Shown in pieces: positions 3,135-61,776 of a stretch of 64,000 nt of DNA. Source of the stretch: Novosphingobium sp. HII-3 (GTDB lineage Bacteria > Pseudomonadota > Alphaproteobacteria > Sphingomonadales > Sphingomonadaceae); assembly GCF_002916655.1 (NCBI RefSeq), contig NZ_PPSM01000008.1, forward strand, positions 1-64,000. Direction: 5' to 3'. Every line of letters begins with the position of its first letter. Within the stretch, counting starts at the first letter, position 1. Below the pieces are notes generated by a model. The model saw only the letters and a list, made by a program, of their open reading frames with translations, ran no database searches and had not been told where the DNA came from. A program made the position numbers and the translations under genes.

Positions 3135-4190
3135 TCAGCTAGCCTCCATCGTCTCGCGGCCCAGTCGGGCCAGCCGCGGGAACGCCGCGGCACGCTCGCG
3201 CGCGTTCTCCGAAACCGCGGTCCCACGGATCACTCTTCCCTTGATGCCGTGGAAGATCGCGGCAAGCCTGAAGAAGTTGAACGCGAGGTAGAAATCCCAG
3301 TCGGCGATCCCGCCGCGTCCTGTGCGCGCGCAGTAGGCTGCGACATATTCGCGCTCGGTGGGAAGGCCAAGAGGTACCGGATCCGTGCCCCCAAGACCGG
3401 CGACGATGTCGGGTGGCATTCGGTACATCATCGCGTGATAGGCGAAATCGGCGAGCGGATGACCGAGCGTCGACAACTCCCAATCGAGGATGGCGACCAC
3501 CTCCGGCTTGGTAGGGTGAAAGATCAGATTGTCGCAGCGAAAGTCGCCGTGAACGATCGCGCTTTCCTCCCCCGAAGGGATGGCGGTTGGAAGCCACGCC
3601 ACCAAGGCATCCATGTCGGGGTCGCGGCCCGCCTCGGCGTCGTCGTGATACTGGCGGGACCAGCGGCCGATCTGCCGCTCGAAGTAATTGCCCGGCTTGC
3701 CATAGTCCCCCAGGCCCACGGCATGCAAATCGACTTGGTGCAAGTCGGCCATGGCCTTGTTCATGGCGTCAAAGTAGGCGGCGCGCTCCCGCTTTTCCAC
3801 CTCGCTGAAGGACGCATCCCAGAATATGCGTCCCTCGACGAGCGCCATGACGTAGAAGGGCGACCCGATAATCGCATCGTCTTCGCAGACACCGAGCACG
3901 GGGGGCACGGGCACCGGCGTAGAAGCGAGACCGCTCAACACGCGCGCTTCGCGAAGTACGTCGTGCGCGCCCTTGAGCACCGGGCCAGGGGGCTTCCGGC
4001 GTAGCACGTAGCGCGCCGATGGAGTGGTAAGACGATAGGTCGGGTTCGACTGTCCGCCCTTGAACTGCTCGATCACCAGCGGTTCGGCGAAACCGGCTAC
4101 GTTCGCCGTCATCCAGCGGACCAGCGACTCTCGGTCGATCGGCGTGCGCACTCCGGTCGCGCCCGAGTTCGCGGCGGCGTCAGTGACCAT
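3135..4190 (-). CDS. APH-fold phosphotransferase (ACAD-associated kinase)
   Basis: A 351-residue protein of the aminoglycoside-phosphotransferase/choline-kinase fold. An N-terminal nucleotide-binding lobe has YVLRRKPPG near residue 60. The catalytic loop HGDFRCDN and the metal-binding ILDWELSTLGHP are intact, so kinase activity is expected. Family members beside acyl-CoA dehydrogenases include P. putida LvaA, which phosphorylates 4-hydroxyvaleryl-CoA, and the kinase half of mammalian ACAD10/11. The ATG at 4190 is preferred because it overlaps the upstream ACAD stop by 11 bases; a longer frame to 4259 would run deep into that gene. The substrate is inferred to be a hydroxyacyl-CoA, not an antibiotic. 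Confidence 0.85.
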   Translation of the reverse strand: MVTDAAANSGATGVRTPIDRESLVRWMTANVAGFAEPLVIEQFKGGQSNPTYRLTTPSARYVLRRKPPGPVLKGAHDVLREARVLSGLASTPVPVPPVLGVCEDDAIIGSPFYVMALVEGRIFWDASFSEVEKRERAAYFDAMNKAMADLHQVDLHAVGLGDYGKPGNYFERQIGRWSRQYHDDAEAGRDPDMDALVAWLPTAIPSGEESAIVHGDFRCDNLIFHPTKPEVVAILDWELSTLGHPLADFAYHAMMYRMPPDIVAGLGGTDPVPLGLPTEREYVAAYCARTGRGGIADWDFYLAFNFFRLAAIFHGIKGRVIRGTAVSENARERAAAFPRLARLGRETMEAS

Positions 4191-5343
4191 TTGCCGCCTT
4201 CCATTCGCGCTTGATCTTCTTGGCGAGGCTCCATTTGTGCACTTCGGTAGGCCCATCATAGATGCGGAAAGCCCGCACTTCGCGGAAGACTTGCTCGACG
4301 ATCGTATCGCCGGTCACGCCGGTGCCGCCCATCACCTGCACGCAACGATCGGCGATGCGCATCAAAGCCTCCGACACGGCAACCTTGGCGATCGAGCTTT
4401 CCGCGGTGCCAAGGCTGCCGCCGTCGAGCACGCCGGCGCACCAGTCGATCATCAGTTCCGACGATTTCAGGTCGATCAGGTTCTCGGCCAACATGAACCC
4501 CACGCCCTCATGGTCGATCAACTGCTTGCCGAATGCCATGCGTCGGTTGGCATAGTCCGTCGCGATCTCATGGGCGCGAGCGCACGAACCCAGCCAGCGC
4601 ATGCAGTGCGACAGACGCGCCGGGGACAAACGCACCTGGGCATACTTGAAGCCTTCGCCCGATTTGCCGAGCATCTGATCGGCCGGGACCCGCAGATCGT
4701 CGATCGTGATGATCGAGTGTCCGCCTGGCATCGAGGAATCGATGGTGTCGAGCACTCGCTCGATCCGGATTGCCGGGTCGGGAAGGTCAACCAGGATCAT
4801 GCAGGCGCCATCTTCCGATTTCGCCATCACGATGCCGACACTGGCGCCGTCGGCGCCGGTGATGAAGGCCTTGCGGCCATTGATCACCCACTGGTTGCCG
4901 TCGAGGCGGCACGTGGTGCGCATCATCGACGGGTCCGATCCCGCACCGCCCTCGCCTGCCGGCTCAGTCATGAAGAAAGCCGAACGCGCGCGCCCCTCGA
5001 CAAGCGGCTTCAGAAAGCGCGCTTTCTGCTCGGGAGAGCCGACCTTGCCGAGAAGGTACATGTTGCCCTCATCCGGCGCCATCGTATTGCAGGCCAGCGG
5101 TCCGAGTGGCGAAAGCCCCGTCATACGCAGCACCAGCGCGGTCTCGACTTGTTTCAGGTGGCTGCCGTCCTCCAGGATATGGGGCGTAAGCACGCCAGCG
5201 CTGCGAGCCTTTTCCCGCATTTCCATCACGAGCGTATCGCTCGGGCCGTGCCCATCGCGACGTGGATCGCTTTCGTAAGGAACGACGACGTCGCGCACGA
5301 AGCGCTCGACCCGCTGTGCAATCTCGGCCGCGCGGGCGGTCAT
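4180..5343 (-). CDS. Acyl-CoA dehydrogenase, ACAD11-like
   Basis: This 387-residue flavoprotein should oxidise an acyl-CoA or process a phospho-acyl-CoA. Visible motifs are the FAD/substrate segment FFMTEPAGEGGAGSDP near residue 125, NGRKAFITGADG, the helix-G block RLSPARLSHCMRWLG, QVMGGTGVTGDT and the C-terminal RIYDGPTEVHKWSLAKKIKR. That last motif resembles the DGPxEVH signature of ACAD10/11-type enzymes rather than YEGT of medium-chain enzymes. Its stop overlaps the APH-kinase start by 11 bases, implying translational coupling, so the two may act in sequence. The start ATG at 5343 lies 83 bases after the preceding gene; the open frame extends further but only as a shadow. Confidence 0.88.
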   Translation of the reverse strand: MTARAAEIAQRVERFVRDVVVPYESDPRRDGHGPSDTLVMEMREKARSAGVLTPHILEDGSHLKQVETALVLRMTGLSPLGPLACNTMAPDEGNMYLLGKVGSPEQKARFLKPLVEGRARSAFFMTEPAGEGGAGSDPSMMRTTCRLDGNQWVINGRKAFITGADGASVGIVMAKSEDGACMILVDLPDPAIRIERVLDTIDSSMPGGHSIITIDDLRVPADQMLGKSGEGFKYAQVRLSPARLSHCMRWLGSCARAHEIATDYANRRMAFGKQLIDHEGVGFMLAENLIDLKSSELMIDWCAGVLDGGSLGTAESSIAKVAVSEALMRIADRCVQVMGGTGVTGDTIVEQVFREVRAFRIYDGPTEVHKWSLAKKIKREWKAANGH

Positions 5344-6627: not shown

Positions 6628-7428
6628 TCAGGATAGCGTTTCGAGCCATTCGCCCTGTTCGGTGAAACGATGCAGGCGCGCCCTTGCGGATTGATCGTCG
6701 CGCAGCAGCTCGCCCATGGCCATGCCGACGCCCTCCAGCCCGCTTTGCTCGCGCGCCAGCCTCATGATCACCCGGACAGCCGTAACGGCTCGGCCCGCGA
6801 ACTCCTCTGCGAGCGCGACCGCCCGATCGAGCGCAGACGGCGCGATCTCATCGACAAGGCCGAGGTCGAGCGCCTCTTCGGCACTTACCACCGCGCCCCG
6901 CAGTGCGAAGAGGCGGGCGCGATGCATACCGATCGCGTCCGAAAGCCGCTTGATCCCGCCCGCGCCCGGGATGATGTCGATCCGGATCTCCGGCAAGCCT
7001 ATGCTTCGTGCCATAGGGCTGGCGATCCTGACGGTGCAGGCGAGCGCCAGCTCAAAGCCGCCGCCCATGCAAACGCCATCGATCGCGGCGATCACCGGCT
7101 TATGCGCCGCCTCCAGCATCGCGCCCAGTTCCATGAAGGGTGTAGTGACGAAACTGGACGGCGCGATCCGCCCGCCCGCAAGCGCGTCGGCCGCCCGCGC
7201 GATCTGGCCGACATCGGCGTGCCGGATGAACACGCCCTCCTGTCCGCCGGTCAGCACGATCGCCCGGATACCGTTGTCCTCGATTAGTTGCCCCACGGCC
7301 TCGCAAAGCTGCGCCGCGCCCTTGTTCGCGACAAAGCCGTGCGGCGGGTTGGCGAAGCGAACGATCGCGACGGTATCGCGACGTTCGACTTGCACCTGCC
7401 CCTCCGAAGCCTGCCCCACCGTCGTCAT
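6628..7428 (-). CDS. Enoyl-CoA hydratase (crotonase family), canonical active site
   Basis: This 266-residue crotonase adds water to trans-2-enoyl-CoA. Both glutamates of the classic hydratase are visible: [12 protein letters not shown] (first Glu) and [19 protein letters not shown] (second Glu). The N-terminus is slightly unusual, with [13 protein letters not shown] in the CoA-binding region. The start ATG at 7428 shares ATGA with the stop of the upstream ACAD (4-base overlap), and the next gene follows after 7 bases. It sits in the five-gene minus-strand operon headed by the 19-bp motif at 8664. Confidence 0.88.
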
Positions 7429-8660
7429 TGCAGATTGTACTGCCGTATCTTCAGCCGTCCGAGCTGGTTCATGTGGACCTCGTCCGGCCCATCCGCGATT
7501 CGCAGATATCGATTGATCAGGAACGCATCCGCCACCGGCGTGTCGTCGCAGACCCCCGCGCCGCCGTGCACCTGGATAGCACGATCGGTAACTGTCTGCG
7601 CCATTCGCGGGGCGACAATCTTGATTGCGGCAATCAGGTCGGCGGCAACCTTGTTGCCGTATTTGTCCATCGCGTCGGCAGCCTTGAGCGTGAGCAGGCG
7701 CGCCTGCTCGATCTCGCAAAACGAGCGCGCCACGTCACGCCGAATGCTGCTCTGCTCGGACAATTTCTTGCCGAAGGCCACTCTGTTCTCCACCCGGCGG
7801 CACATCACTTCCAGCGCCCGCTGTGCCTGGCCGATCGACCGCATGCAGTGGTGGATGCGGCCCGGCCCGAGCCGACCCTGTGCGATCTCGAAGCCGCGGC
7901 CTTCCCCAAGAATCAGATTGGACGCGGGCACACGAACATTCTCCAGCCGCACCTCTGCCTCGCCGCCGGGCGAGTGCCAGTTGTTGAACACGCGCATCGT
8001 GCGAACGATCGAGACGCCTGGCGTGTCGCGCGGGATGATGATCGTCGAATGCTGCGCGTGCCGCGGCGCTTCGGGATTCGACTTGCCCATCAGGATCAGC
8101 AGCTTGGCACGCGGATCCATGATGCCCGAGATCCACCACTTGACGCCGTTTATCACATAGTCGTCCCCATCGCGCACAATGGTCGTGCTGATGTTGGTTG
8201 CGTCCGACGAAGCGACCATCGGCTCGGTCATCATGTAGACCGACCGGATTTCGCCCGCGAGGAGCGGCTTGAGCCATCGCTCCTGCTGCTCGGGCGTCCC
8301 GAATTTCGCCAGCACCTCCATGTTTCCGGTGTCCGGCGCGGAGCAGTTGAAGAATTCAGGCGAAGTGGGCACACGGCCCATGATCTCGGCCAAAGGCGCA
8401 TATTCGAGATTAGTGAGCCCCGGACTGAACTCGCCATACTCATGCGGCAGAAACAGGTTCCACAGCCCTTCGGCGCGCGCCTTTTCCTTCATCACCTCGA
8501 TCCCTGGCCAGGGCTGCCACCGGTTCGCCGGGTCTGCATTCCAACCTTCGATCTCGTGCTCGATCGGGTACACATTCGCGTCCATGAAGGCTTCGAGCTT
8601 GGCGACGAGCGCCTTCACCTTGTCGCTATGATCGAAATCCATCGGGCTCGTCCTAACCAT
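7425..8660 (-). CDS. Acyl-CoA dehydrogenase, ACAD11-like
   Basis: This 411-residue ACAD heads the operon. Motifs in order: [20 protein letters not shown] near residue 75, [44 protein letters not shown], the helix-G block [31 protein letters not shown] and [20 protein letters not shown]. The DGPDEVH ending and RIHHCMR block are typical of ACAD10/11-type enzymes. It is a clear paralogue of the 57088-58314 product. The ATG at 8660 is only 3 bases from the 19-bp motif at 8664-8682. An alternative start is the ATG at 8642 (MDFDHS). Confidence 0.9.
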
Positions 8661-25340: not shown

Positions 25341-28683
<3,343 letters not shown>

Positions 28684-28951: not shown

Positions 28952-29995
28952 TTACAGGATGCCGCGTGCAATTGAGCGCTGAGCCTTAGCGAGCAATATA
29001 AGCGCTTGTGCATGCAGCCGATCACCGACCTCCCGGTCCGCTCTCCCCGCGATCGCTCGAGCGTTCGATCCTTCTAGGAGGATCGCGAGTTTGTAGCAGG
29101 CAAGCACTTTGTACCAGAGCATCGCGGAGGTATCACGCTGAGAATTCGTGACATAGTGTGCGATGAGTTCGGCGATTGTGGGAAAGCCGTCGGACGGTTC
29201 AAGCCGCGTAATGGGCTGCACCTCGTCCTCATCGTCCGGACATGTCGAGATCAGCCATCCCATATCGATCAAAGGATCGCCAACGGACGCAAGCTCCCAG
29301 TCGACAATGGCGGCAAGCTCAGGGCCATCTGTTCGGAACATCACGTTGGCGAGATGGTAGTCGCCGTGAATGATTCCAGGCGTGAAGGACGTGGGGCAGT
29401 GCTCATCCAACCACGTGCCGACCGCCTCAACGCCAGAGAGGCTATCCCTGCGCCAGCCTCCGTGACTGGCATAGCCTTCATACTGCTTGCGCCAGCGCGT
29501 CGCCTGACGCTCGAGATAGTTCTCGAGTCGGCCCATATCGCCAAGCCCCGCGGCAAACGGGTCGATTCGTCCGAGCGCCAGCGCCCCATCCACCATCGCA
29601 AACCCCATCCGGCGGCGGATCGCAGGATCTTCGGCATGCAGGGCAGGCATACCCACAGTCGCGTTGAAGCCTTCAACCGGCTCCATCAGGTAGAAGGCGG
29701 AGCCGAGCACCTCTTCGTCAGAACATGCGGCAATCAGACCAGGATGCGGCACGTCCGAACCCGCCAGCGCCCGCAGGATGCGAGCTTCGCGCCGCATCGT
29801 CTCGCTGCCATTGGCGATGCTGTGAAGAGGAGGCCGACGAAGGACGAACGTGCGGGCGCCGCGCGTGAAGCGAAGCAGGACATTCTGCGTGCCTCCGGTT
29901 AAAGGGACCACATCGTCGATGACGCCGGACTCGAGCCCCTGTCCATCCATCCAGGCGGCCAGACAATCGAGGTCGACGAGAGAACGCCATTCCAT
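28952..29995 (-). CDS. APH-fold phosphotransferase (ACAD-associated kinase)
   Basis: This 347-residue kinase-fold protein has N-lobe motifs LTGGTQNVLLRFTRG and FVLRRPP, the catalytic loop HGDYHLANVMF and the metal-binding IVDWELASVGDPLIDMGW. All catalytic residues appear present. It is the last gene of a long minus-strand operon (from 34755), 9 bases after an SDR gene. By family context it may phosphorylate a hydroxyacyl-CoA intermediate. It is the most divergent of the four kinases here and the only one without an ACAD in its own operon. Confidence 0.85.
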   Translation of the reverse strand: MEWRSLVDLDCLAAWMDGQGLESGVIDDVVPLTGGTQNVLLRFTRGARTFVLRRPPLHSIANGSETMRREARILRALAGSDVPHPGLIAACSDEEVLGSAFYLMEPVEGFNATVGMPALHAEDPAIRRRMGFAMVDGALALGRIDPFAAGLGDMGRLENYLERQATRWRKQYEGYASHGGWRRDSLSGVEAVGTWLDEHCPTSFTPGIIHGDYHLANVMFRTDGPELAAIVDWELASVGDPLIDMGWLISTCPDDEDEVQPITRLEPSDGFPTIAELIAHYVTNSQRDTSAMLWYKVLACYKLAILLEGSNARAIAGRADREVGDRLHAQALILLAKAQRSIARGIL

Positions 29996-41466: not shown

Positions 41467-42267
41467 ATGAGCGACAACCCGGACGAAAGTGTTCGTTATC
41501 AAGTCAAAGACGCCATCGCCACGATTGAGCTCAATCGGCCCGCTCGCCGCAACGCGCTCAATCGTGACGCTTACGCGCGGCTTGAAGATGCGTTTCGGCG
41601 CGCCGCTGCCGATCCCGAGGCGATCTGTATCATCCTCACCGGCGCAGATCCTGCTTTCTGCTCAGGAGACGACGTCGACGAAATCCTGAGCTCCGCGGCA
41701 AAGACGGTGAAGGAGGCGTTTGGCGTCGTGCGGCATCAGCCGACTCCGGCGGCGCTTGCGGCGCTTGAATGTGACAAGCCGGTGATCGCCGCGGTGAACG
41801 GCCCGGCGGTCGGCTGGGGAATGGAACTCGCGCTTTACGCCGACATTCGGATCGCCTCTGAACGGGCGAAATTTGCCGAGTTGTTCATCAAGCGTGGCTT
41901 GATATGCGATTTGGGTGGCTTCTACCGACTGCCCGCCATCGTCGGCTATGCAAAGGCAGCCGAATTATTATTCACCGGAGACGTGATCGACGCGCTGGAG
42001 GCGAAGGCGATCGGGCTTGTCAGCGAGGTTGTGCCGCATGGATCGTTGCTCGAGCGAACCCGCGTGTTGGCGACACGTATCGCCGGTAATCCACCACTGG
42101 CGTTACGGTACATGAAAGAAGGGCTTCGCCGCGCAACCTATGGAGACCCGCGCGATATCGGGAATTGGGCAACTGATACGCTCTACCGGCTGATGCAAAC
42201 CGAGGACCATAGGGAAGGCGTCGCCAGCTTTATCGAAAAACGCTTGCCAGTCTTCCGAGGGCGCTAA
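41467..42267 (+). CDS. Crotonase-family protein (enoyl-CoA hydratase/isomerase)
   Basis: A 266-residue crotonase: LNRPARRNALNRDAYARLED, DPAFCSGDDVDEILS and VNGPAVGWGMELALYAD, which retains the first Glu. The second hydratase Glu is replaced (AELFIKRGLICDLGGFYRLP has Asp four residues later), a pattern seen in isomerase-like or other crotonases. GGTGGA precedes ATG 41467. It closes the plus-strand operon that starts at 37480 and is followed by a long hairpin. Confidence 0.87.
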   Translation: MSDNPDESVRYQVKDAIATIELNRPARRNALNRDAYARLEDAFRRAAADPEAICIILTGADPAFCSGDDVDEILSSAAKTVKEAFGVVRHQPTPAALAALECDKPVIAAVNGPAVGWGMELALYADIRIASERAKFAELFIKRGLICDLGGFYRLPAIVGYAKAAELLFTGDVIDALEAKAIGLVSEVVPHGSLLERTRVLATRIAGNPPLALRYMKEGLRRATYGDPRDIGNWATDTLYRLMQTEDHREGVASFIEKRLPVFRGR

Positions 42268-42288
42268 GACGAAATCACCGAACGCTCC

Positions 42289-42329
42289 CTCCGCGGCGGT
42301 GCCGCCCGGGTAGACTCCGGGCAGCGGAG
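42289..42329. terminator. Hairpin between convergent genes
   Basis: Nested arms CTCCGC/GCGGAG (outer) and GCCCGG/CCGGGC (inner, 7-base loop) lie between the crotonase stop at 42267 and the convergent ACAD stop at 42334. A T-tract is not evident, so it may act in both directions or only stabilise RNA ends. Confidence 0.45.
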
Positions 42330-42333
42330 CACA

Positions 42334-43668
42334 TCACGGCCGAATCTGACTCTTCCGATAGTCGACATCAGCGGCGGTCAACGCCGCCATCTCTTGCCGA
42401 CGCGGCCCGAGGTAGCCAAACAGGAACGCGCCAACCTTCCGCATTTGGATCTCTTCCGCGCCTTCGGTGATGCGGTATCGACGGTGATGGCGGTAGATAT
42501 GCTCGAATGGCTTGTGGCGTGAATAGCCGATGCCGCCATGCACCTGTATCGCTCGATCAGCCGCTTCGCAGCACAGTCTATTCGCCCAATAGTTGCACAT
42601 CGACACTTTGTCTGAGAGGCGCCTCTCCACCTCCGGATGCGGCATCTGATCCATCTCCCAAGCCGTCTTACGGATCAGCTGGCGCAACATCTCGCACTGT
42701 GTCGCAAGTTCGACCAAGGGAAATTGTATCGCCTGGTTCTCCGCCAGGTCGCGGCCGAACGGCTTACGCGCACGCGCGTACTTTACGGCTTCCTCGACAC
42801 AGTAGACAGCTGCGCCGAGCGAACTTGCCGCCTGCCGAATGCGATTCTCATGAACGAAAGCTTGGGCGAGCGGTAGGCCGTTGTCCTCAGGTCCGAACAG
42901 CGCCTCCTCGGGTACCCAAACATCCGTGAGTGTCAGGCGCGGATGGTCCGTCGGCATGTTGAAAGTCCACAGGTACTCGTCGATCGTCAGCCCCGTCGCT
43001 TCCTTTGGGACGAGAAAGCAACTGATCCCTCGGGCCTCGCCGTCCTTACCGCTTGTTCGGGCGAAGACCGCGCAGTGCGTGGCAATATGCATGCCGGTAA
43101 TCCACATTTTCTCGCCATCAATGCGCCAGCCCGGAATGCCTTGGCGCGTTTCGCGCACCGCCCGTGTCTCCATGTGGGTCGCGTCGGAGCCGTGATGCGG
43201 CTCGGTTAATCCGAAGCACACGAACAAGCTCTGATCGAGCAGACCTGGTATGAAATCTTCTTTCTGCTTGTGCGTCCCGAAATCGCGGAACATGACCGCA
43301 AGCGGCTGATTGCCTACGATCGAGTGCTCGGCCTGAAGGTCGTTGTGCAGTCCGAGACCCTTGGCGGCAAGGTGTTCTCGGATGACGGCCATCCACAGAT
43401 TGCCCCCGCCCTGCCCGCCAAACTCCTTCGGCTGCGCAAATCGGAAAAAGCCGGCCTTGTCCGCGCGCCGCTTGGCCTCTGCCTGCAGCTCTTCCCATTC
43501 ATGCCGCGGCAGTCCGTGATTGTCCCAGTCGGTACGCGCCCATTCGCGGCGGTGATCGAAGAAGCGGATGTTATCATCGGCCTCCTCAAGCGGCCTGATC
43601 TCTTCCTCGATGAAGCGATCGAGCCGTTGTAGATAGTCGGCGAGCTCTGGCGGGATGCTGAAATCCAT
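42334..43668 (-). CDS. Acyl-CoA dehydrogenase, LvaC-like
   Basis: This 444-residue ACAD is longer than usual because of an N-terminal segment (ADDNIRFFDHRREWARTDWD). Motifs: QPKEFGGQGGGNLWMAVIRE, CFGLTEPHHGSDATHMETRA near residue 155, DGEKMWITGMHIATHC, QVHGGIGYSRHKPFEHIYRH and RRYRITEGAEEIQMRKVGAF. It is the third gene of APH kinase, DUF6285, ACAD on the minus strand. The order equals lvaABC of P. putida, where 4-hydroxyvaleryl-CoA is phosphorylated and converted to 3-hydroxyvaleryl-CoA. It may therefore process a phospho-hydroxyacyl-CoA rather than perform plain dehydrogenation. Confidence 0.87.
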   Translation of the reverse strand: MDFSIPPELADYLQRLDRFIEEEIRPLEEADDNIRFFDHRREWARTDWDNHGLPRHEWEELQAEAKRRADKAGFFRFAQPKEFGGQGGGNLWMAVIREHLAAKGLGLHNDLQAEHSIVGNQPLAVMFRDFGTHKQKEDFIPGLLDQSLFVCFGLTEPHHGSDATHMETRAVRETRQGIPGWRIDGEKMWITGMHIATHCAVFARTSGKDGEARGISCFLVPKEATGLTIDEYLWTFNMPTDHPRLTLTDVWVPEEALFGPEDNGLPLAQAFVHENRIRQAASSLGAAVYCVEEAVKYARARKPFGRDLAENQAIQFPLVELATQCEMLRQLIRKTAWEMDQMPHPEVERRLSDKVSMCNYWANRLCCEAADRAIQVHGGIGYSRHKPFEHIYRHHRRYRITEGAEEIQMRKVGAFLFGYLGPRRQEMAALTAADVDYRKSQIRP

Positions 43669-43695
43669 CTTCCTCTCCTACGGGTCACTTGTGAC

Positions 43696-44082
43696 TCAGT
43701 TGTCGCTGCCGCGAAGTGCGCGAGCGCGTGTCAGCCCTGCATAACCGGGCTGGTCGACGTCCAGCTTCGCCTCCGTCATTGCCCAAAGACAAGCCTCGAC
43801 CTCAGGTCGGGCCGGATCGATCGTGCGATCGGCAATGCCAGCAGCAAGCGCACGGATCAGATCCTCTGTGCTGCCCTCCTGGCCGAGCAGCACGGCCAGT
43901 GCGGCGTTCTCCCCGTCTTTGTCCGACTGCGGCACCATCAGCTCGCGACGCACCAGATCAAGGGCGTTAGCGGTAACCCGAAGCTGAAAGGCGTCGTTGC
44001 CGGCCAACTTCGGCAGGATCTCCTCCCGCAGGAACGCCGTAGCGGAGGCGAGTATCTCGATTGCTGTGGGTTCATCCTGCAT
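43696..44082 (-). CDS. DUF6285-type small protein (LvaB-like partner)
   Basis: A 128-residue, probably all-helical acidic protein with TAIEILASATAFLREEILPK near the start, FQLRVTANALDLVRRELMV, and ARPEVEACLWAMTEAKLDVD near the end. I recognise this as the DUF6285 family. LvaB of P. putida, which is needed for full LvaA kinase activity, is of similar size and sits in the same position between kinase and ACAD genes. ATG 44082 is 2 bases after the kinase stop, so the two are coupled. It has no signal peptide or membrane segment. An activator or scaffold role is inference. Confidence 0.8.
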   Translation of the reverse strand: MQDEPTAIEILASATAFLREEILPKLAGNDAFQLRVTANALDLVRRELMVPQSDKDGENAALAVLLGQEGSTEDLIRALAAGIADRTIDPARPEVEACLWAMTEAKLDVDQPGYAGLTRARALRGSDN

Positions 44083-44084
44083 CG

Positions 44085-45098
44085 TCAGTCGCCCAGATAG
44101 ATGAGACGGAGAAGGTCGATCTCGTTTTCCGATGCGCGACGCGCAATCATCGCTCGCTCCACCGAACGATCGATGCCGTCGCGGAACACTGCGACCATCG
44201 AGGCGCAATTGACGCCCCAGCGCAAAGCGCTGTGCACCTCCCACCAGCGCATGCGGGCGCGGTCCACCGTTCCTCCGGCCGCCTCGTATCCCGCAAACAG
44301 CTCCTCGCGCTGGCCCAGCCCCGCGACTGGGCGATCCACCTGACCGAAGCGCCAGGGCGTCGCGCATAGCCAGGCAAGGTCCTCCATCGGATCGCCGAGA
44401 TGGCACAGTTCCCAGTCGAGGACGGCTCTGACATGGTCAGGTCCGATGATGAGGTTGCCTAGGCGGAAGTCTCCATGCACGAGGCACGTGGGAGCGGGGT
44501 TGGGCAGACGGTCCTCCAGCCAGCGGATCGCCAGCGCGAACACCGGACGTGGACCGGTGAGCTCTTCGACGCCGCGCCTCATCAGGTCGAGCGCGTCAGC
44601 CGGTTCTCCAGCGCGCAACGACGGCAGATCCGCAATCGGCACACCGTGAATTCGCGCCAGAATGGAGCCGAACTCGCCTGTAAGCCGCGGTCGTACATCC
44701 AAGAACTGATCGTCCCGCAAAATCTTGCGCGCGATCGTCTCGCCATCGACATGCCGCGTGAAAAAGCCCCGGCCCAGGCCATCCTCAGGATCGAGCACGT
44801 AGCACAGCGGCGGCGTTCGCACGTCGTGCGCTGCCACCGACCGAATGACAGCGGCCTCGGTCTCCAGCCCGGCGGCGGTCTCGTGCTGGAAGGTGCCGCC
44901 CGGCGCACGACGTAGGATCATGCTCGATCGCCTGCCCTGCGCCTCAATGTCGAAAGCCCATGTCTCCTGGCTCGCCCCGCCGGACAAACGGCGGAGGTTA
45001 CGCACCTCACCGCCCCCTTCAACAAGGCGATCAGCAAGCGCCGCGAGTCGCTCCTGATCCAGCGCCGCGGGCGCCACGTTCTCGACGTTCGTAGTCAT
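44085..45098 (-). CDS. APH-fold phosphotransferase, LvaA-like
   Basis: A 337-residue kinase fold: RLSGGASQETWAFDIEAQG and MILRRAPGG in the N-lobe, the catalytic loop CLVHGDFRLGNLI, then AVLDWELCHLGDPMEDLAWL. All catalytic residues are present. With the DUF6285 gene 2 bases downstream and a long ACAD behind it, this is the best match in the window to LvaA, the 4-hydroxyacyl-CoA kinase. The acyl chain here is unknown. It lies 106 bases after another APH kinase of the same strand. Confidence 0.85.
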   Translation of the reverse strand: MTTNVENVAPAALDQERLAALADRLVEGGGEVRNLRRLSGGASQETWAFDIEAQGRRSSMILRRAPGGTFQHETAAGLETEAAVIRSVAAHDVRTPPLCYVLDPEDGLGRGFFTRHVDGETIARKILRDDQFLDVRPRLTGEFGSILARIHGVPIADLPSLRAGEPADALDLMRRGVEELTGPRPVFALAIRWLEDRLPNPAPTCLVHGDFRLGNLIIGPDHVRAVLDWELCHLGDPMEDLAWLCATPWRFGQVDRPVAGLGQREELFAGYEAAGGTVDRARMRWWEVHSALRWGVNCASMVAVFRDGIDRSVERAMIARRASENEIDLLRLIYLGD

Positions 45099-45204
45099 GT
45101 CAGCTGATGCACGCCCCCAATTGGTTGATTGCAGACTGCCGCGTGGCGGCCCCTAAGTGCGCTTGACGGCATGCCGATGTCGGTTGCCCCTGGACGAGGC
45201 GGCC

Positions 45205-46269
45205 TCAGATGTCGCGCGGATGGTTGAAGATCTCGAGAGCCTGTTCTGCCAGGGTGTTGGTGCCGTTCTCGATCACTCGATCCGTCGCAACGTTGCCCAT
45301 CTGGCTCCGCTTGTAGACACCTTGCGCAATCGCGGCCAAACGGAAGATCGCGAAGGCGAGATAGAAGTGCCAGCCCTCGATCCCATCGCGGCCGGTTCGC
45401 CGGCAGTAGGCGGCGACATATTCCTCCTCGCTCGGGATGCCGCTGGCCGCCAGGTCCACGCCGTCCAGGGTTCCCCAGGTGGGATCGTGCAGGTGCCATA
45501 GCAACGCGTTGTAACCGATGTCCGCGAGCGGATGGCCCAGCGTAGAGAGCTCCCAATCGAGGACGGCGATGATCTTCGGCTCGGTAGGATGGTACATCAC
45601 GTTCTCGAGTCGATAGTCGCCGTGCGCGATCCGGACGCTGTCGTCGCCCCGGATCGCCGAAGGCAGCCGCGCCATCAGCTCTTCCATCGCGGGCAAGTGA
45701 TCGGTCTCCGCCGCGCGGTACTGCTTCGTCCAGCGCCCGATCTGTCGCTCGAAATAGCTTCCGGCCGGTCCATAATCCGCAAGTCCCGCGCCCTCAGGCT
45801 CGATCAGATGGAGTTGCGCGAGGACCGCATTGAGCGAGTCATAGATCGCGCTGCGTTCCTGAGGCGACTGGTCCGGAAGGCGCGCATCGCGAAACACTCT
45901 GCCTTCGAGATAGTCCATGACGAAAAACTCAGTGCCGACGACGCTGTCGTCATCGCAGTAGAGCCGCATCTTCGGGACCGGCAACCCTTGTTGCCCAAGA
46001 GCCTTCATCACGCGGTACTCGCGATCGACCCGGTGTGCACTGGGCAGCAAGGCTCCGGGGGGCTTTTTGCGCAAGACATAGCGTTGTGGCCCGTCTGCAC
46101 CTTCGGCCATGATCATCAAGGTCGGGTTGGACACTCCGCCTTGAATCTGACTAACCTTCATTCCGGCACCGAATCCGGGGATCCGCTCGCGCAAATATCC
46201 TTCCAGCGGTTCGGGATCGAACCGGTGAACCGCCATGACATCGGCCATCGTAGTGCCCGCGTCCACCAT
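45205..46269 (-). CDS. APH-fold phosphotransferase (ACAD-associated kinase)
   Basis: A 354-residue kinase fold with IQGGVSNPTLMIMAEG, YVLRKKPPGALLPSAHRVDR, the catalytic loop IAHGDYRLENVMYHP and AVLDWELSTLGHPLADIGYN. It resembles the 3135-4190 product much more than the adjacent LvaA-like kinase (shared PAGSYFERQIGRW/KPGNYFERQIGRW and ELSTLGHP blocks). ATG 46269, preceded by GGGAG, is preferred; the longer frame to 46452 crosses the operator. It heads the four-gene operon, 30 bases from the operator-like motif at 46299. Confidence 0.87.
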   Translation of the reverse strand: MVDAGTTMADVMAVHRFDPEPLEGYLRERIPGFGAGMKVSQIQGGVSNPTLMIMAEGADGPQRYVLRKKPPGALLPSAHRVDREYRVMKALGQQGLPVPKMRLYCDDDSVVGTEFFVMDYLEGRVFRDARLPDQSPQERSAIYDSLNAVLAQLHLIEPEGAGLADYGPAGSYFERQIGRWTKQYRAAETDHLPAMEELMARLPSAIRGDDSVRIAHGDYRLENVMYHPTEPKIIAVLDWELSTLGHPLADIGYNALLWHLHDPTWGTLDGVDLAASGIPSEEEYVAAYCRRTGRDGIEGWHFYLAFAIFRLAAIAQGVYKRSQMGNVATDRVIENGTNTLAEQALEIFNHPRDI

Positions 46270-46298
46270 CACGACTCTCCCATCATTGACCGATCTGC

Positions 46299-46317
46299 TG
46301 CTTAGTCGATAAATCAA
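46299..46317 (-). promoter_or_regulatory. Putative operator, copy 7 of the 19-bp motif
   Basis: On the minus strand TTGATTTATCGACTAAGCA. It lies in the divergent promoter between the APH kinase (start 46269) and the plus-strand reductase (start 46404), 30 and 87 bases from the two starts. Confidence 0.6.
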
Positions 46318-46403
46318 ACGCGAATCAACGTGCGCAAAGTCTTCACTCTTCGCGCGGCAATCCCGGCTCGCTCGTGGCCCGGGGCGGACAAGGGGGTAGG
46401 GCC

Positions 46404-47423
46404 ATGGCTCACATGAATCGCGCATTTGTATTGAAGCACCGACCGACCGCAAATCTCGCAGCCGGTGACCTCGAGCTTGTGGAAACGCCCGTTCGCGAGC
46501 TCGCGCAGGGCGAGTTGCTCATCCGCAACATCTACCTATCGCTCGATCCGACCAACCGGATCTGGATGAGCGACCGGGAGCAGTACCTCCCTCCGGTGGG
46601 CGTCGGCGATGTTATGCGCGGCGGCACGGTCGGCGTGGTCGAGGAGAGCCGGTCCGACCGGTTTGCGCCCGGAGACATTGTCATGCCAGCCGAAGGCGGT
46701 TGGGCGCTTTACTGCATTTCGCACGAGCGGGCGACGCGCCGGGTGCGCATGGCCTCGGGGGTCCCGCTCACCGCGCACCTCTCCGTAGTAGGTCCCACCG
46801 GCCTCACGGCTTACTTCGGCCTCCTGGACATCTGCGATCCGCAACCGGGGGAGACGCTGGTCGTGTCGGCTGCCGCAGGGGCAGTGGGGTCCGTCGTTGG
46901 CCAAATCGCCAAGATCAAGGGTGTGCGAGTCGTCGGCATCGCGGGAGGCGAGGCGAAGTGCCGCTGGATCGTGGACGACCTCGGCTTCGACGCCGCCATT
47001 GACTACAAGAACGAGGATGTGGGCGCGGCTCTTGATCGGCTGTGCCCGGACGGCATCGACATGAACTTCGAAAATGTGGGCGGACCGATCATGGATGCTG
47101 TCTTCTCTCGGCTTCGCCTGCACGGGCGTATGTCGCTGTGCGGCATGATCTCGGGCTATAACGAAGAGGGGCCGCTCGCCGGGCCGACCGATTTCGGCCG
47201 CGTGCTGATGAAGCGACTCACGATACGAGGCTTCATCGTTATCGACTACATGGCCCAGGCCAAGCAGGCCTACACCGATCTGTCGCAGTGGGTCTCGGAG
47301 GGTCGCCTGAAGTGGAAGGACCATGTGGTGGACGGGCTGGAGAACGCGCCGTCGGCGCTCGATCGCCTGTTCACGGGCAATCACGATGGCAAGCTGATGG
47401 TCCGCATCTCGCCGGAGACCTGA
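46404..47423 (+). CDS. NADP-dependent alkenal/one oxidoreductase (leukotriene-B4-dehydrogenase-like MDR)
   Basis: This 339-residue zinc-free MDR enzyme is of the PTGR/CurA type: FVLKHRPTANLAAGDLELVE, LSLDPTNRIWMSDREQYLPP, the cofactor loop VSAAAGAVGSVVGQIAKIKG and NFENVGGPIMDAVFSRL. Family members reduce alpha,beta-unsaturated ketones or aldehydes with NADPH. ATG 46404 follows AAGGGGGTAGGG. It is the first plus-strand gene after the divergent operator; the following ACAD has its own motif copy. Confidence 0.9.
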   Translation: MAHMNRAFVLKHRPTANLAAGDLELVETPVRELAQGELLIRNIYLSLDPTNRIWMSDREQYLPPVGVGDVMRGGTVGVVEESRSDRFAPGDIVMPAEGGWALYCISHERATRRVRMASGVPLTAHLSVVGPTGLTAYFGLLDICDPQPGETLVVSAAAGAVGSVVGQIAKIKGVRVVGIAGGEAKCRWIVDDLGFDAAIDYKNEDVGAALDRLCPDGIDMNFENVGGPIMDAVFSRLRLHGRMSLCGMISGYNEEGPLAGPTDFGRVLMKRLTIRGFIVIDYMAQAKQAYTDLSQWVSEGRLKWKDHVVDGLENAPSALDRLFTGNHDGKLMVRISPET

Positions 47424-57087: not shown

Positions 57088-58314
57088 TCAACGGTACTTG
57101 GACAGCTCCAGTCGCGCGACCGCGCGATTGTGCACCTCGTCGGGCCCGTCGGCGATCCGGAGCGAGCGAGCACCTGCATAGAACTTCGCGAGGCCGGGAC
57201 CGGTGGTCACGCCTCCGCCGCCCCAAGCCTGGATCGCGTCGTCGATGATCCGGCACGCGATCTTCGGAAGGGCAGCCTTGATCATCGCGATCTCGAGCTG
57301 CGCGCCCTTGTTGCCGACCTTGTCCATCATGTCCGCGGCCTTGAGCGTGAGCAGCCGAGACATCTCGATGTCGATGCGCGCCTCGGCAATGCGCTCGTGC
57401 CAGATCGTCTGGTCGGCAATCTTCCGGCCGAACGCCGTGCGGGCCTCAAGCCGCCGGCACATCATTTCGAGAGCATATTCGGCCACGCCAATCGTGCGCA
57501 TGCAATGGTGGATGCGCCCCGGCCCGAGACGACCCTGTGCGATCTCGAAGCCGCGGCCTTCACCCAGAATGATGTTTTCGACTGGGACGCGAACGTCCTC
57601 GAGCAGCACTTCTGCGTGACCGTGCGGAGCGTCATCAAATCCGAACACCGGCAGCATCCGCACAATTGTGAGCCCAGGAGCATCCCGCGGCACGAGGATC
57701 ATCGACTGCTGGGCGTGCTTGGGCGCAGACGTATCCGTTTTCCCCATTACGATCACGACCTCAGCACGAGGATCGCCCATGCCGCTGGACCACCACTTGC
57801 GCCCATTCACGACATACTCGTCACCGTCGCGGACAATCGAGGTCTCCACATTGGTGGCGTCTGAACTCGCCACGTCGGGCTCGGTCATCAAAAAGGCCGA
57901 GCGAATCTTACCGTCCATCAGCGGCTTGAGCCAACGTGCCTGTTGCCCCGGCGAACCGTAGCGAAGCAGCAACTCCATGTTGCCCGTGTCGGGTGCCGAG
58001 CAGTTGAAGAGCTCGGGCGCCCACTCGACCCTTCCGGTTAGCTCCGCGAGCGGGGCATACTCCAGATTGGAGAGGCCGGCGCCGCGTAGCCCATCACGCT
58101 CGTGCTCGGATGGAGGAAGAAACAGGTTCCACAGGCCCGCGGCCCGAGCTTCCTCTTTCAAATCTTCGACGATCGCGGGCAACTGCCAACGGTCGGCGCC
58201 GAAGGCCGCCATCTGCGCCTCGTAGATCGGCACGGATGCGATCACTCTCTCCTGCATGAAGGCCCGCATGCGCTCCATCCATTCCGACTGGCGATTGCTG
58301 AACTCGAAATTCAA
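57088..58314 (-). CDS. Acyl-CoA dehydrogenase, ACAD11-like
   Basis: This 408-residue ACAD is closely paralogous to the 7425-8660 product: [80 protein letters not shown] and [20 protein letters not shown]. Residues 55-90 include [20 protein letters not shown]. Unlike its paralogue, it is not followed by an APH kinase but by a saccharopine-dehydrogenase-like gene. It starts 178 bases from a plus-strand crotonase, with the operator-like motif in between. Confidence 0.9.
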
Positions 58315-60571: not shown

Positions 60572-60657
60572 GATCGTCTGACCGTTTGTGGGGCCCGACC
60601 GCCTCCTCCCTCGAGGGTCACGCGGGCGGACCGGCAGCAACTTATAAGAGAGGGAAG

Positions 60658-61776
60658 ATGAACCACAAACGGCTACTGGAGCCCCTTGCCCACCGTGGCC
60701 TTCTATATTCTAACCGAATCGTCTTCTCGCCACTGACACGTGCGCGGGCGACCTCGGACGGCGTTCCAGGCCAATTACAAGCGGAATACTATCTTCAACG
60801 CGCATCCGCTGGGCTTCTGATTTCCGAAGCCATTGCCATAAGGCCTGATGGACGCGGCGGCGCTTGGACGCCAGGCATCTACAACGAGGCGCAGATCGAC
60901 GGGTGGCGGCAAACCACCGACGCGGTGCACGCAGCGGGCGGTCGCATCTTCGCGCAGCTTTGGCATGCGGGCCGTTTGTCGCATTCCTCCTTCCATCCCG
61001 AGCGCCTTCCGCCAGCCGCGCCCGCTGCAATCGCTGCCAGCGGCCGCGTCGTTCTCGAGAGTGGCGCAGCGCCCTACGAGACGCCCCGTAGGCTGACAAT
61101 CGACGAAATCGAACAATACATCGCGCACTATGAGCAGGCGGCTCGCAATGCTATGGAAGCGGGGTTTGACGGCGTCGAAATCCACGGCGCGCATGGCTAT
61201 CTACTCGACTCTTTCCTGCGCGATGCAATCAACAACCGTGACGATGCCTTTGGTGGATCGGTGGAAAACCGAGCCCGCTTCTTGGTGTCTGTGATCGGCA
61301 GAGTCACCGATTGCGTCGGCGCCCACCGCGTAGCGGTCCGCCTCTCGCCGAACACCACGGCAGGCGACATGACCGACAGTGATCCTGAAGCCACCTTTGG
61401 CTACGTAATCGAATGCATGAACGCGCTCGACGTCGCGTGGATCGATGTGATCGAAGGCAATAACATGGTCACCCGCGACGTGCCCGGCGGCCTGGATACC
61501 GATATCCTGACGCGCGCCTTCAGCGGTGGCATCATCCTGAATCACGGGTTCACATTCGACATGGCCGATGAGGCGCTCGCCGCTGAGAGGGCAGATATGA
61601 TAGCGTTCGGACGAGATTTCATAGCCAATCCGGATCTGGTCGAACGTTGCCGCAAGGGCCTGCCGCTTGCCACGTCCGACCGGTCAGTTTGGTATGGCGG
61701 CGGCGGTGAAGGCCTGATCGACTTTCCTCCTCATCCCGCCAGCAGCGAAGCTGCCCAAAGCTCGGTGAGTGGCTAA
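60658..61776 (+). CDS. Old-yellow-enzyme-family NAD(P)H:flavin oxidoreductase
   Basis: This 372-residue FMN TIM-barrel protein has NRIVFSPLTRARATSDGVPG near the N-terminus, FAQLWHAGRLSHSSFHPERL, the substrate-binding HGAHGYLLDSFLRDAINNRD and IAFGRDFIANPDLVERCRKG. It likely reduces an activated C=C bond, such as in an enone or cyclic enal. GAGGGAAG precedes ATG 60658. It is followed 6 bases later by a metallo-beta-lactamase-fold gene, forming a two-gene unit in front of the next operator. Confidence 0.93.
   Translation: MNHKRLLEPLAHRGLLYSNRIVFSPLTRARATSDGVPGQLQAEYYLQRASAGLLISEAIAIRPDGRGGAWTPGIYNEAQIDGWRQTTDAVHAAGGRIFAQLWHAGRLSHSSFHPERLPPAAPAAIAASGRVVLESGAAPYETPRRLTIDEIEQYIAHYEQAARNAMEAGFDGVEIHGAHGYLLDSFLRDAINNRDDAFGGSVENRARFLVSVIGRVTDCVGAHRVAVRLSPNTTAGDMTDSDPEATFGYVIECMNALDVAWIDVIEGNNMVTRDVPGGLDTDILTRAFSGGIILNHGFTFDMADEALAAERADMIAFGRDFIANPDLVERCRKGLPLATSDRSVWYGGGGEGLIDFPPHPASSEAAQSSVSG

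Follow-up and report, generated by a model that had tools for sequence, protein, structure and literature searches.

Three adjacent reverse-strand genes of Novosphingobium sp. HII-3, encoding a kinase, a DUF6285 protein and an acyl-CoA dehydrogenase (ACAD), raise the question of whether they form a dehydroxylation module of the kind encoded by lvaABC. They occupy positions 42,334–45,098 of a 64,000-nucleotide stretch of contig NZ_PPSM01000008.1 (the window, meaning the whole of the DNA that was analysed). A first-pass annotation had read them as such a module, with the ACAD acting as LvaC. Our comparisons uphold one part of this reading: the kinase and the DUF6285 protein are, judged by sequence, homologous to LvaA and LvaB and stand in the same order, whereas the ACAD belongs to a group other than that of LvaC, which we term FQSE. 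With moderate confidence, we propose that the LvaAB-like pair phosphorylates a hydroxyacyl-CoA, that an LvaC-type enzyme encoded elsewhere eliminates the phosphate, and that the FQSE ACAD is an ordinary dehydrogenase in the same pathway.

Organization of the locus

The first gene (44,085–45,098) encodes an LvaA-type APH-fold kinase of 337 residues (PF01636, 134.7 bits). Both motifs recognized in the first-pass annotation, HGDxxxxN and DWE, are intact, as HGDFRLGN from residue 208 and DWE at residue 228. Two bases separate its TGA stop from the ATG of the second gene (43,696–44,082), whose 128-residue product scores 87.5 bits against PF19802, compared to a gathering cut-off of 28.1, and is thus a member of DUF6285, as assigned initially. 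The ACAD gene (42,334–43,668) follows after 27 bases and encodes 444 residues with the N, M and C domains of ACADs. The APH, DUF6285 and ACAD Pfam domains all score above the curated cut-offs, and the gene order, the two-base spacing and the outer limits of the module are exactly as first described. NCBIfam names neither the ACAD nor this kinase specifically, giving for both only matches far under the curated cut-offs, and contains no match for the DUF6285 protein of the window or for annotated LvaB. A promoter and terminator scan of positions 42,100–46,700 gave no signal above that of shuffled sequences, so that it is the gene spacing alone that suggests an operon.

A second APH kinase, which did not figure in the first-pass finding, is encoded 106 bases upstream on the same strand (45,205–46,269, with a predicted start in an open frame reaching 46,452; HGDYRLEN, DWE). 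It is of the type found in the kinase domain of ACAD10/ACAD11: the frame 45,205–46,452 scores 298.8 bits against mouse ACAD11 (8v3v), compared to 39.5 bits for the kinase at 44,085–45,098. The latter differs from the ACAD10/ACAD11 kinase domain also in having a DUF6285 partner.

Relationship of the kinase and DUF6285 protein to LvaA and LvaB

Two lva (levulinate) operons served for comparison, one on plasmid p12939-PER of P. aeruginosa (L004) and one on a Stutzerimonas plasmid (L003); both are plasmid-borne and annotated from a prpR-type regulator through a symporter. The LvaB of the P. aeruginosa plasmid, annotated as a 4-hydroxypentanoyl-CoA kinase subunit, is itself a DUF6285 protein (85.3 bits); in the Stutzerimonas operon, the product encoded at the LvaB position matches the same family with 77 bits. 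The DUF6285 protein of the window is 32% identical to annotated LvaB, and the kinase is 33% identical to the kinase of the P. aeruginosa operon, in each case over most of the length. In the Pseudomonas lva operon, where LvaA and LvaB constitute a 4-hydroxyvaleryl-CoA kinase, as in the window, an APH-fold kinase is followed immediately by the DUF6285 protein.

This pairing recurs widely. We collected 60 DUF6285 loci, comprising 57 stretches that account for 58 of 96 match rows and a further three drawn from 10 additional genomes. An LvaA-type kinase is beside or fused to DUF6285 in all 60, indicating that the adjacency is more than chance. An FQSE-type ACAD is present on nine of these loci and an LvaC-type ACAD on eight, with both on L043; the other 44 have neither on the stretch, and some of them carry ACADs of other kinds. 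A scan of viral contigs yielded no relative of the DUF6285 protein of the window.

Despite this homology, the window kinase does not look orthologous to the kinases of lva operons. In a FastTree phylogeny of 143 rows, eight kinases adjoining LvaC-type ACADs, including both lva-operon kinases, form one group (support 99), and the window kinase falls outside it, among kinases linked to another ACAD. In a quick IQ-TREE analysis of 55 rows, the eight rows and the ACAD11-type outgroup share one side of a branch (support 98). Forcing the window kinase into the eight-row group costs 44.5 log units in the 55-row analysis, with a p-AU of 0.026 that is optimistic since the group was named only after the first tree had been inspected. 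A simple split is contradicted by four other kinases adjacent to LvaC-type ACADs (two on L056, one each on L074 and L086), which also lie outside the group; the FQSE-linked kinases do not form a single clade either, requiring 11 changes in the 143-row tree. Additionally, a search of the whole genome for DUF485 (LvaF) returned no match at an E value of 0.001, making levulinate use through the lva pathway unlikely. The position of the kinase and the missing lvaF match both set the locus apart from LvaA-LvaB and are consistent with the earlier suggestion of a substrate other than levulinate.

A second DUF6285-kinase pair is encoded in the same genome on contig C41 (L002/L082, at approximately 8.1–9.6 kb). 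Its kinase and DUF6285 protein are 65% and 52% identical to those of the window, and the stretch fetched around it contains no FQSE ACAD. Several variations were seen around DUF6285 genes elsewhere. At L052, L055 and L059, which represent three genomes from the class sample described below, tandem LvaA-type kinases precede a single DUF6285 gene. In Stutzerimonas (L003:7364-8125), Thermus (L007:8297-8950) and Azospirillum (L010:7412-7735), DUF6285 is followed by a gene of the histidine phosphatase family, which in Azospirillum has an IS21-like element behind it. In Thermus thermophilus HB8, which is distant from the Proteobacteria, the genes for an LvaC-type ACAD, a kinase and DUF6285 are consecutive on pTT27 (L007).

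The ACAD belongs to a family distinct from LvaC

We aligned the ACAD with LvaC of both plasmid lva operons and with LvaC-type ACADs from Azospirillum and Thermus plasmids, all of which have R, H, R and D at the columns of R626, H634, R637 and D753 that characterize LvaC and ACAD10/11. The window ACAD has F, Q, S and E at these columns, and we coined the family label FQSE from these four residues. It therefore has neither the phosphate-binding residues of the HCMR group (R626, H634 and R637) nor the catalytic Asp. Glu402, within ITEGAEEIQ, is aligned with the column of this Asp and is invariant in sets of 11 and 30 aligned sequences. Conventional ACADs such as medium-chain acyl-CoA dehydrogenase (MCAD) carry Glu at that column, and the window protein shares with such ordinary ACADs the combination of ACAD domains and this Glu. 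The FQSE family is tight, with 61–88% identity to the window ACAD across 11 sequences, whereas the window ACAD and the P. aeruginosa plasmid LvaC are 26% identical. Extra N-terminal residues further distinguish the window protein from LvaC; what it shares with LvaC and ACAD10/ACAD11 are the ACAD domains and, at this locus, the place after a kinase and an LvaB-like gene.

Gln279, which occupies the His634 column of ACAD11, is invariant in the FQSE family, whereas six of seven other non-LvaC ACADs that we aligned have a hydrophobic residue there. This Gln suggests that the acyl chain is polar, and perhaps hydroxylated. Published work on ACAD11 found R626, H634, R637 and D753 to be required, and non-conservative substitutions of the first three were the most disruptive to activity (PMC12440821). 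A conserved Pro, Pro463 in human ACAD11, widens the cavity (PMC11342911).

The possibility that the window ACAD nevertheless eliminates phosphate by the LvaC mechanism, as the first-pass annotation had it, draws on the lvaABC-like gene order and on the presence of the ACAD domains. The low identity to LvaC, the replacement of all four diagnostic residues by the same letters throughout the family, and the presence of better LvaC candidates in the window itself (see below) make it very improbable, and we do not retain this part of the earlier assignment.

Among the papers searched, neither the FQSE ACAD nor its partnership with a kinase was found described, none contained the word DUF6285 in full text, and none reported such a module for Sphingomonas; a search on bile acids gave no paper on it by title. 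Among the papers listed in a further search, those on this dehydroxylation chemistry were two ACAD10/11 papers and PMC6692424.

LvaC-type enzymes and other genes of the window

An LvaC-type ACAD is encoded at 4,180–5,343 on the reverse strand (predicted start); it has the HCMR and DGPTEVH motifs and shares 56% identity (448 bits) with the LvaC encoded on the P. aeruginosa plasmid. Directly behind it is an APH kinase gene on the same strand (3,135–4,259; PF01636, 173.3 bits; HGDFRCDN, DWE), whose product is of the ACAD11-kinase type by profile score and groups with such kinases in the tree. Two further reverse-strand genes, at 7,425–8,660 and 57,088–58,314, encode ACADs assigned to the ACAD10/11 type by profile score and by their motifs (HCMR and DGPDEVH in both). 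The remaining APH-fold kinase, also on the reverse strand, is at 28,952–29,995 (PF01636, 132.6 bits; HGDYHLAN, DWE). Three LvaC/ACAD11-type ACADs and four APH kinases are thus encoded within one 64-kb window.

The window also encodes CoA ligases, enoyl-CoA hydratases, a thiolase, short-chain dehydrogenases/reductases, a CaiB-type CoA transferase and a reductase of the old yellow enzyme (OYE) family (60,586–61,776). A 780-residue frame (26,341–28,683) combines a thiolase-like additional C-terminal domain (TLP1_add_C) with an enoyl-CoA hydratase domain. The window as a whole is a large region of acyl-CoA catabolism, and several of its genes are of the kind that phosphate-dependent dehydroxylation employs.

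Linkage and co-occurrence of FQSE ACADs with the kinase pair

A profile scan of genome contigs with the FQSE alignment identified at least 588 relatives, and the best 80 loci, for which the ACAD was the only query, were analysed further. Many are from Sphingomonadales and Caulobacterales, and they also include Bradyrhizobium and records labelled as Beta- and Gammaproteobacteria. An LvaA-type kinase frame occurs within 2 kb in 64 of the 80 loci and a DUF6285 match in 60, with distances measured between open frames. Upstream on the same strand, kinase and DUF6285 share one open frame in 29 loci, a fusion that is a further difference from LvaA-LvaB; in 24 they are upstream but split, and in five the upstream kinase frame has at least 440 residues and no DUF6285 match. 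The kinase is divergent in six loci. Sixteen have no such kinase within 2 kb; three of these have little upstream sequence, one of them with a DUF6285 gene. When the window genes were compared to the 80 loci by blastp (45% identity, 60% coverage), the kinase passed in 27 loci, DUF6285 in five, and each of the other window genes in seven at most (aldehyde dehydrogenase).

The class sample comprised 385 genomes of the host's class, of which 88 contain DUF6285, 54 contain FQSE and 187 contain LvaC/ACAD11-type ACADs by profile score. DUF6285 is present in 51 of the 54 FQSE genomes compared to 37 of the 331 others, and an LvaC-type ACAD in 53 of the 54 compared to 134 of the 331. When genomes are grouped by family code, FQSE occurs in 26 families, 25 of which also include at least one sampled genome with DUF6285; DUF6285 itself occurs in 47 families. 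Thirty FQSE genomes were chosen from the 80 loci; in all of them the top LvaC-type match has the R....R..HCMR pattern, and in 29 a regular expression for a DGPxxVH-type motif matched. A comparison of 20 FQSE loci apart from DUF6285 disclosed no informative shared neighbour family; the FQSE gene was kept in only 14 of them.

Structure models and comparison with 25-HSK

The AF2 model of the window DUF6285 protein is all-helical, with six helices (pLDDT 92.5, pTM 0.67). Foldseek found no match in the PDB at E < 1, and other structural matches had middling Z and were mostly confined to the first 51 residues; these comparisons speak neither for nor against a new fold. We also modelled a natural kinase-DUF6285 fusion (L159:1249-2604); the scores (pLDDT 89.3, pTM 0.89) suggest a defined arrangement of the two domains in the predicted chain. 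The best Foldseek match of the fusion model in the PDB is 3dxp, followed by two structures of 25-hydroxy steroid kinase (25-HSK), 9fsg and 9ft5.

25-HSK shares the APH-like fold and makes a phosphate ester for elimination: it phosphorylates an unactivated tertiary alcohol at C25 (PMC8449060), which shows free tertiary alcohols to be within reach of kinases with this fold (PMC8449060 and PMC11061730). The fold and the rank of 9fsg and 9ft5 raise the alternative that the window kinase likewise acts on a free alcohol. We regard this as improbable. The sequence similarity of the window kinase to 25-HSK is weak (E value of 4.7e-4), compared to 9.3e-16 for 3dxp and 3.4e-9 for ACAD11. The DUF6285 partner is held in common with LvaA, and the portions of the 25-HSK literature consulted mention none. 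Moreover, the kinase is surrounded by genes of acyl-CoA pathways. ACAD10/11 are reported to act only on CoA esters, leaving the free acid unphosphorylated (PMC12440821).

Proposed role of the locus

Homologies, motifs, gene linkage, fusion and co-occurrence are the observed basis on which we favor a division of labor between two kinds of ACAD. The kinase, with DUF6285, would phosphorylate a hydroxyl group of a CoA ester, probably at the gamma position. Phosphate elimination would be carried out by an LvaC/ACAD11-type ACAD whose gene lies in another part of this catabolic region, and presumably not by the FQSE ACAD. The latter would act as an ordinary α,β-dehydrogenase with Glu as the base and may pass electrons to electron-transfer flavoprotein (ETF). 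Its likely substrate is the same kind of oxygenated acyl-CoA, either before or after dehydroxylation, and its invariant Gln would fit an uncharged polar group better than a phosphate.

Several observations weigh against this proposal. First, classification of 92 ACAD frames across the 80 loci gave 76 FQSE, four FQGE and only two LvaC-type frames, so that the enzyme proposed to eliminate phosphate is in most cases not encoded nearby. Second, only eight of 56 FQSE genes in the class sample lie within 5 kb of DUF6285; the partnership there is thus mostly one without gene linkage, and the order seen in the window is one arrangement rather than the rule. Third, DUF6285 occurs in 37 genomes that lack FQSE, and 32 of these encode an LvaC-type ACAD, which implies that the kinase pair does not need FQSE. 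LvaC-type ACADs are common in any case (187 genomes), the scoring of both ACAD types took at most four candidates per genome, and the Fisher p-values of both co-occurrences, although tiny, ignore shared descent. Finally, by our reading of the alignment, Arg86 of ACAD11, a modelled CoA contact, seems to be kept neither in the window kinase nor in LvaA.

Part of this evidence would fit an oxidative route, in which the FQSE ACAD converts a 4-phosphoacyl-CoA to 4-phospho-2-enoyl-CoA, from which phosphate leaves to give 2,4-dienoyl-CoA, while the electrons pass to ETF and are not returned to the substrate. Kinase and FQSE genes are closely linked, in most cases as same-strand neighbors (58 of the 80 loci), and LvaC-type ACADs are rarely near (two among the 80). 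Gln and Ser stand where ACAD11 has phosphate-binding His and Arg, the first of these positions being mostly hydrophobic in other non-LvaC ACADs, and the OYE-family reductase could reduce the dienoyl-CoA. However, no Arg or His is present at the phosphate-binding positions, where the substitutions in ACAD11 were so disruptive (PMC12440821), and all but one of the 54 FQSE genomes carry an LvaC-type ACAD as well. On this evidence we consider the route unlikely. Slightly less so, though still doubtful, is the broader idea that FQSE is a second kind of ACAD for kinase-dependent removal or relocation of hydroxyl groups; it would act oxidatively on the product of the LvaAB-like kinase or on the hydroxy substrate, yielding 2,4-dienoyl-CoA or a 4-oxygenated enoyl-CoA. 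If this were true, bacteria would hold two chemically distinct kinase-ACAD dehydroxylation routes side by side.

Kinase-ACAD dehydroxylation has been explained only recently in mammals, for ACAD10/11, and for bacteria most of the knowledge comes from the lva operon. In many proteobacterial genomes, the same kinase-helper pair is linked to a different ACAD, and this linkage opens a way to find out whether such chemistry extends beyond LvaC. The natural kinase-DUF6285 fusions, in turn, make the role of LvaB testable in a single chain.

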